Shown here: positions 1 through 11,483 of the stretch, in pieces
How the letters are laid out: every line of letters starts with the position of its first letter
How positions within the stretch are numbered: position 1 is the stretch's first letter
Origin: Maricaulis sp.
GTDB lineage: Bacteria; Pseudomonadota; Alphaproteobacteria; Caulobacterales; Maricaulaceae
Direction of reading: 5' to 3'
Assembly: GCF_015665295.1 (NCBI RefSeq)
Contig: NZ_JADFAJ010000001.1
Location: 1 to 64,000 of the forward strand
Length of the DNA: 64,000 bases
Notes under the pieces: generated by a model
Told to the model about the DNA's origin: nothing
Database searches by the model: none
Seen by the model: only the letters and a program-made list of their open reading frames with translations
Made by a program: the position numbers and the translations under genes

Positions 1-283
1 CCCCGAAAAACGGACTGATGTCGCCCCAGAATGGCGAGATGTCGCCGTAGAAGGGATTGATATCCCCGCGGAACGGATTGATGTCTCCGAAGAAGGGATT
101 GATGTCTCCGAAGAAGGGATTGATGTCTCCGAAGAAGGGATTGATGTCCCCGAGATAAGGGTGAAGGAATGTGTTTCCAGTTCGGTCATTCCCGTCGGAC
201 TCTTGTGCGAATGCAGGCGTCATGACCCCGGTCAGGGACATGAGCGCGATCACCGCGGCTCCGGATTTCAAATACTGACGCAT
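1..283 (-). CDS. Secreted GDINPF heptad-repeat protein, 3' truncated by window edge
   Basis: ATG (complement of cat at 281-283) opens MRQYLKSGAAVIALMSLTGVMTPAFAQESDGNDRTGNTFLHPYLGDINPFFGDINPFFGDINPFFGDINPFRGDINPFYGDISPFWGDISPFFG, open to the window edge. Signal peptide with AFA-QE cleavage-like site followed by 7-aa repeats. Missing from ORF track because it is truncated. Confidence 0.85.
   Translation of the reverse strand, partial: MRQYLKSGAAVIALMSLTGVMTPAFAQESDGNDRTGNTFLHPYLGDINPFFGDINPFFGDINPFFGDINPFRGDINPFYGDISPFWGDISPFFG
5..151 (-). repeat. Seven 21-bp tandem repeats encoding GDI(N/S)PF(F/R/Y/W)
   Basis: Units read GG(G/A/C)GA(C/T)ATC(AAT/TCG/AGT)CC.TT.(TTC/CGC/TAC/TGG). Units 2 and 3 are identical at DNA level and unit 1 differs by 1 nt; array continues past position 1. 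Confidence 0.92.
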
Positions 284-492
284 GAGGACCCTCCCAGCCC
301 AATTTCATGCGACCAACATCCCCCCATTTCGTTTCGCCCCCCTCAACAGACGTTGTAAACAAACGCTTAATCGGGCCAGTGGTTAAGAATGGGTTTCCAC
401 CCGACGCCTCCCGGACATGCCCGCGCGGCACCGCCTGACCGAATTTCGCGCTTGCGTCGGGTTTTCAACTATTCCAGTTAGGCACCCTGGCC

Positions 493-569
<77 letters not shown>

Positions 570-620
570 TTTGCCGGACCATGTGGCGTCATGGCGTTGT
601 CGACCGGCCGTCGGCACCGC

Positions 621-11398: not shown

Positions 11399-11483
11399 TG
11401 GTGCCCCTGGCCCGACTCGAACGGGCACTTCCGAAGAAAACGGATTTTGAATCCGTCGCGTCTACCAATTCCGCCACAGGGGC
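11399..11483 (-). tRNA. tRNA-Leu (CAA)
   Basis: Reverse complement GCCCCTGTGGCGGAATTGGTAGACGCGACGGATTCAAAATCCGTTTTCTTCGGAAGTGCCCGTTCGAGTCGGGCCAGGGGCACCA. Long variable arm; anticodon loop TTCAAAA. Confidence 0.96.

Follow-up and report, generated by a model that had tools for sequence, protein, structure and literature searches.

A heptad-tailed S8 protease with a predicted outer-membrane barrel and its co-inherited TPR receptor in Alphaproteobacteria

The first bases of the window (the whole 64,000-nucleotide stretch of Maricaulis DNA analysed here) encode the N-terminus of a protein with a tandem array of aromatic heptads, which is cut off at the contig end. This raises the question of what the complete protein is, what the heptads are attached to, and with which partner such a protein might act.

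The heptad array and the assembly break

Translation of the window showed that the minus-strand open reading frame running from 283 to 2 starts with MRQYLKSGAAVIALMSLTGVMTPAFA, continues with QES..., and then enters seven heptads; up to the first heptad, the protein reads MRQYLKSGAAVIALMSLTGVMTPAFAQESDGNDRTGNTFLHPYL. The N-terminal segment MRQYLKSGAAVIALMSLTGVMTPAFA (206..283, minus strand) resembles a signal peptide, with an A-x-A type end site assigned by eye, and the homologues have the same type of signal-peptide-like N-terminus. The short mature N-terminus QESDGNDRTGNTFLHPYL (155..205, minus strand), located ahead of heptad 1, contains the FLHPY motif common to close relatives. The seven complete heptads of the form GDI[NS]PF[FRYW] and the first Gly of the next one occupy 2..154 (minus strand), where the array leaves the contig. 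The heptads are arranged in the order GDINPFF, GDINPFF, GDINPFF, GDINPFR, GDINPFY, GDISPFW, and GDISPFF, with F, F, F, R, Y, W, and F at position 7. TRF identified a tandem array at 3-161 with a 21-bp unit, 7.5 copies, and a score of 176, and at least one GDI[NS]PF motif appeared in 46 of 100,000 shuffles of the 67 mature residues, compared with seven in the real sequence. An origin by chance or as an antisense artefact is ruled out by the TRF array, the shuffles, and the homologues.

The original prediction of a secreted protein with a signal peptide and a genuine heptad array is supported by the signal-peptide-like start, which recurs in the homologues, and by the open reading frame, the TRF array, and the shuffles. 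Its finding that units 2 and 3 share the same DNA sequence, from which unit 1 departs by one base, was confirmed. The motif that it proposed, GDINPF(F/Y/W), is present but too narrow, since one unit ends in R and two carry S in place of N. On the strand opposite the array, an open frame of 118 codons (2-358, plus strand) is a by-product of the repeat and no gene candidate. The divergent upstream neighbour is a tRNA-Arg gene (CCT; 493..569, plus strand), which is found in the same place in three related loci (L010, L011, and L012). A second tRNA gene assigned by Rfam (11402-11483, minus strand) is unrelated to the heptad gene.

Base 1 of the window is also base 1 of contig C1, and the truncation of the reading frame is therefore due to the assembly rather than to the choice of window. 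Within the same genome (G000), a search located the heptad at a single further site, the final 130 bases of contig C17 (minus strand), where the array resumes (68831->68703, minus strand) with about six more units, giving at least 13 units in this genome. From the C17 end, the frame stays open for 873 amino acids and comprises the approximately six units (some of them SDDINPFW), followed by a helical region and a subtilase domain; the C-terminus is barrel-like and ends in RFEMRF. The original prediction had considered that the frame might be disrupted just outside the window, which is not the case. In L010, the counterparts of the C17 end (3.8 kb, 85.7% identity) and of window 9-570 (81.7% identity, with the tRNA-Arg CCT included) adjoin each other end to end, an arrangement with which L011 and L012 agree; the gene is uninterrupted in the relatives, and the same tRNA-Arg lies upstream of it. 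No exact overlap of 10 bp or more was found between the C1 and C17 ends, and it is the synteny that indicates that the two fragments probably belong to one gene. The assembly break falls inside the 21-bp array and leaves the gene as two fragments on two contigs, and the assemblies of G006 and G022 are likewise split at their heptad-protease gene. Such arrays break short-read assemblies, and the heptad-protease gene is therefore likely to be mis-annotated in draft genomes.

Domain anatomy and predicted structure of the protease

The full-length protein consists of a putative signal peptide, the heptads, a helical domain, an S8 subtilase, and a C-terminal predicted outer-membrane barrel ending in Phe. 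One-piece homologues in the closest set (tblastn against 101 relatives) range from 942 to 1066 amino acids. The protease domain belongs to the S8 subtilases (PF00082, E 2.7e-31), Foldseek places it among the subtilisins (E 2.5e-17), and the triad residues D270, H295, and S476, together with the oxyanion residue N392, are invariant in 63 homologues. A free fibre, solenoid, or passenger made of heptads alone is rejected, as the array forms the N-terminal tail of a protease. The original prediction, which had taken the heptads for the body of the protein and for something other than a common enzyme, missed the S8 serine protease with its intact triad; its suggestion of searching for a C-terminal domain proved correct, with a predicted barrel found past the subtilase.

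We modelled one homologue (L039) by AlphaFold2 with 63 homologues. Residues 1-131, which contain the heptads, have pLDDT values mostly of 25-40 and no predicted fold, and a solenoid is thus neither predicted nor excluded by the structure prediction that had been suggested for the repeat. Residues from about 132 to 260 are helical and well folded in the model, and the S8 domain, which reaches to about residue 535, scores about 85-97. Heptads and helical domain may together constitute a pro-region that maintains the subtilase in an inactive state or guides its folding or transit and is then removed by self-cleavage, the receptor described below being a separate regulator. Subtilases usually have an N-terminal pro-domain, the two elements sit at the position of one, and no I9 inhibitor domain was found in the heptad protease. 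However, pro-domains are folded and of near-constant length, whereas the arrays extend from 3 to 34 units and lack a predicted fold next to a well-folded helical domain, which makes this explanation unlikely.

Analysis of the region between the S8 domain and the barrel revealed just short strands and one helix, the latter directly ahead of the barrel, and no beta-helix stalk in the model. When modelled alone with 67 homologues, the barrel reached a mean pLDDT of 89 and a pTM of 0.88, with about 16 strands. Its best fold matches are 16-strand porins, secretin-like 16-strand barrels, and cellulose synthase subunit C, with modest TM-scores of 0.2-0.5. No classical autotransporter translocator occurs among the 50 best PDB fold matches of the barrel, and a PDB sequence search with the barrel profile gave no match. 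In a sequence scan run without a positive control for sensitivity, PF03797 was matched at E<=0.1 by 0 of 67 members, and three S8 proteins that lack heptads likewise had no PF03797 match. No POTRA family was matched in scans of the full-length protein or the barrel.

Subtilisin-like (S8) type Va autotransporters, including Ssp, SphB1, NalP, and EprS, form Group 15, which is mainly beta- and gammaproteobacterial (PMC9289746). Like these, the heptad protease combines a putative signal peptide, an S8 protease, and a C-terminal outer-membrane barrel in one polypeptide. Unlike these, it lacks PF03797 (67/67) and a beta-helix stalk, has about 16 predicted strands rather than 12, possesses an N-terminal heptad array and a helical domain, and is inherited together with a TPR receptor. 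Assignment as a classical type Va autotransporter was rejected: with PF03797 in 0 of 67 members and a barrel of about 16 strands, the protein should not be filed under this class. Comparison with the patatin-like type Vd proteins (PlpD type) revealed the shared fusion of an enzyme to a barrel of about 16 strands, but the heptad protein has an S8 protease in place of a patatin and no recognised POTRA domain.

These features also bear on a surface-displayed protease, the alternative nearest to the original prediction, for which the barrel would export the passenger, the tail would serve as the outermost, extended, aromatic-rich adhesive or tethering arm, and the receptor would just control or sense export. 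Subtilisin-like autotransporters act at the surface (PMC9289746), the helix directly before the barrel in the model is as in autotransporter translocators, and the tail is repetitive, aromatic, of low confidence in the model, and different in length between near-identical proteins. We nevertheless regard surface display as rather unlikely, given the missing PF03797 translocator (0/67 members), fold matches to 16-strand barrels rather than 12-strand autotransporters, the lack of a beta-helix stalk or POTRA match, and a conserved partner that is predicted to face the periplasm.

Variation and constraint in the heptad array

A scan of 84,980 species genomes yielded at least 79 named alphaproteobacterial loci that were kept. 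The loci listed include Maricaulis, Hyphobacterium, Marinicauda, Oceanicaulis, Parvularcula, and Aquisalinus; Sphingomonas, Sphingomicrobium, Erythrobacter, Altererythrobacter, Croceibacterium, and Novosphingobium; and MAGs of Caulobacter and Phenylobacterium. Among the matches listed, lag-7 periodicity exceeded that of all shuffles in 73 of 79 N-termini; of the six exceptions, five show a super-repeat of 14 residues, and the remaining one (L086) is cut by a contig end and has few units. Across the family, the array forms an N-terminal tail of about 90-250 amino acids in most members and, under the counting rule applied, contains between 3 and 34 units. The fixed unit number of a known non-repetitive leader, which the original prediction had named as an alternative, does not apply, as the arrays vary across the family.

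The consensus over 951 units is G(0.90)-[DN]-[ILV]-x-[PA]-F(0.90)-[WY]. The corresponding frequencies are 0.90 for G, 0.90 for F, 0.94 for P/A, and 1.00 for I/L/V, the last being fixed by the search rule and all coming from a motif search that favours the consensus letters. Diverged heptads include GSVSPFW, GNLRPFY, GHIRTF, and, in Parvularcula lutaonensis, DLHIDPL. The locus of the latter species (L116 4630-8415, plus strand) has a DLHIDPL array of about 34 units, which is attached to the same protease and accompanied by the same TPR-kinase partner. The family shares a conserved mid-array block, YGDISPFWGDI[NS]PFWGDINPF, and some lineages show super-periods of 14 or 21 residues.

Comparison of two homologues from Maricaulis MAGs revealed 19 and 26 units attached to cores that are 97.9% identical, although one of the two arrays may be mis-assembled. 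Synonymous differences separate units that encode the same heptad, and the identical GDINPFG unit is encoded by many DNA variants within one gene. The unit difference and the synonymous differences together indicate that the length of the array is variable and its residues are constrained. The proposal that the array changes length by recombination or slippage agrees with the two unequal arrays on near-identical cores and with the break of the assembly at the array. It is very unlikely that the tail is a linker under low constraint that grew by repeat slippage and is kept as a mere spacer with no specific binding role. The length polymorphism, the super-periods, and the low-confidence structure are in line with a spacer; the strong residue constraint over the 951 units (in a search favouring these letters), the many DNA variants behind the identical GDINPFG unit, and the conserved central block all argue against it.

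We also searched for the heptad outside the family. In evenly drawn class and phylum samples, a two-unit DNA pattern, which is narrow and misses diverged arrays, was not found outside the heptad-protease family; it matched the own genome and G244, and the controls gave zero. Use of the heptad as a general repeat in other proteins was rejected, the two-unit pattern being confined to this family in the samples. The repeat had no Pfam model match in the proteins scanned, and GDINPF and five related hexamers were not found in a search confined to open-access papers.

The neighbouring TPR receptor and a possible mechanism

Clustering of neighbouring genes revealed one family beside almost every member of the heptad-protease family. 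In G000, the partner gene (C17 64848-65960; L008 3484-6048; minus strand) lies 161 bp past the protease stop, and its product combines a signal-peptide-like segment with TPR repeats, a single membrane span, a degenerate GGDEF domain, and an EAL domain, in which the usual catalytic motifs are readable and look intact. The sensor has an N-terminal hydrophobic segment and one central span, and its TPR domain is predicted to face the periplasm. Of the 76 listed loci whose flanks were readable, 73 have the sensor next to the protease, which is downstream on the same strand in 68, downstream on the opposite strand in 1, and upstream on the same strand in 4 (L057, L064, L088, and L089), with a median gap of 74.5 bp. 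Two of the remaining loci (L058 and L101) have the sensor elsewhere in the genome, and no sensor was found in a search limited to the third locus (L091). Loci of S8 proteins without heptads have no such TPR sensor as a neighbour.

The protease and sensor genes are inherited together. Among the 101 relatives, both occur in 24 genomes and neither in 76, the latter including the congeners G002, G005, and G011; G022 has the sensor without a protease match, its protease C-terminus being cut by a contig end. The co-occurrence has a Fisher P of 2e-22, with relatedness uncorrected. Divergence of the sensor follows that of the protease (Mantel r 0.85), and none of 2000 permutations reached this value. 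The sensor outputs comprise EAL with degenerate GGDEF, GGDEF plus EAL, and histidine kinase with or without a receiver, and at least three changes of output type were mapped on the protease tree (FastTree, with class calls made partly by motif). The output thus changes on this tree, and the TPR part and the protease are what stays together. Linkage alone could mean co-regulation. In addition, co-inheritance applies to the whole protein rather than to the heptads in particular, as heptads and partner are both present in nearly all members.

TPR domains are generic and commonly bind short peptides, and their ligands are often short, repeated, aromatic, and proline-containing. The heptads are attractive as a TPR ligand because they are short, repeated, aromatic, proline-containing, and unstructured in the model, and the TPR domain may read them. 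On this sequence evidence, we give a probability of about 40% to our main reading, that the membrane-anchored S8 protease with its heptad tail works together with the receptor encoded next door. The predicted barrel would anchor the protease in the outer membrane, with the heptad tail and the protease facing the periplasm for at least part of the protein's lifetime. The periplasmic TPR domain of the inner-membrane receptor would bind the tail or otherwise sense the protein, with either the heptads or the helical/S8 part as its ligand. Binding, loss, or self-cleavage of the tail would then alter the receptor output, namely c-di-GMP breakdown in the G000 lineage and a phosphorelay in others, and the length of the tail may tune reach or avidity. 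We put forward only tentatively the more specific proposal of a two-gene envelope module, in which the variable tail is a tunable ligand read by the periplasmic TPR domain and the outputs, c-di-GMP turnover or histidine-kinase signalling, were swapped during alphaproteobacterial evolution.

LapD-LapG and DvhD-DvhG (for the latter, PMC13090378) each pair a c-di-GMP receptor with a periplasmic protease, and in LapD-LapG the binding between the two is controlled by c-di-GMP. Like LapD-LapG, the pair described here (in the G000 lineage) joins an inner-membrane periplasmic sensor bearing EAL and degenerate GGDEF domains to a non-cytoplasmic protease. In contrast, the protease here is S8 (PF00082) and predicted to be barrel-anchored, not a LapG-type cysteine protease; the sensor is TPR rather than LapD_MoxY_N or dCache; the EAL catalytic motifs look intact; no adhesin substrate is known; and histidine kinases replace this output in other lineages. 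Both S8-barrel proteins and TPR-linked c-di-GMP proteins represent kinds already known. In the open-access literature searched, neither the combination of an S8-barrel protein with a TPR receptor nor the heptad tail nor the swapping of outputs was found, and the near-constant adjacency across Alphaproteobacteria suggests a previously undescribed protease-to-signalling pair. If real, the pair would represent a widespread alphaproteobacterial link from an outer-membrane protease to intracellular signalling, with the output exchanged and the sensor and protease constant. It would also provide a testable function for a short aromatic repeat, in which tandem-repeat length could set signalling strength.

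Additional gene copies were observed in two genomes. In G244, L131 (C1 2682500-2685587) and L132 (C2 297000-299993) are paralogues with differing heptad arrays and identical C-terminal ends; both are truncated where their contigs end, which suggests that a repeat was collapsed. In G072, the copy L031 (C1 311142-313697) contains an in-frame TAG, and another copy in the same genome is open and accompanied by a TPR sensor of its own.
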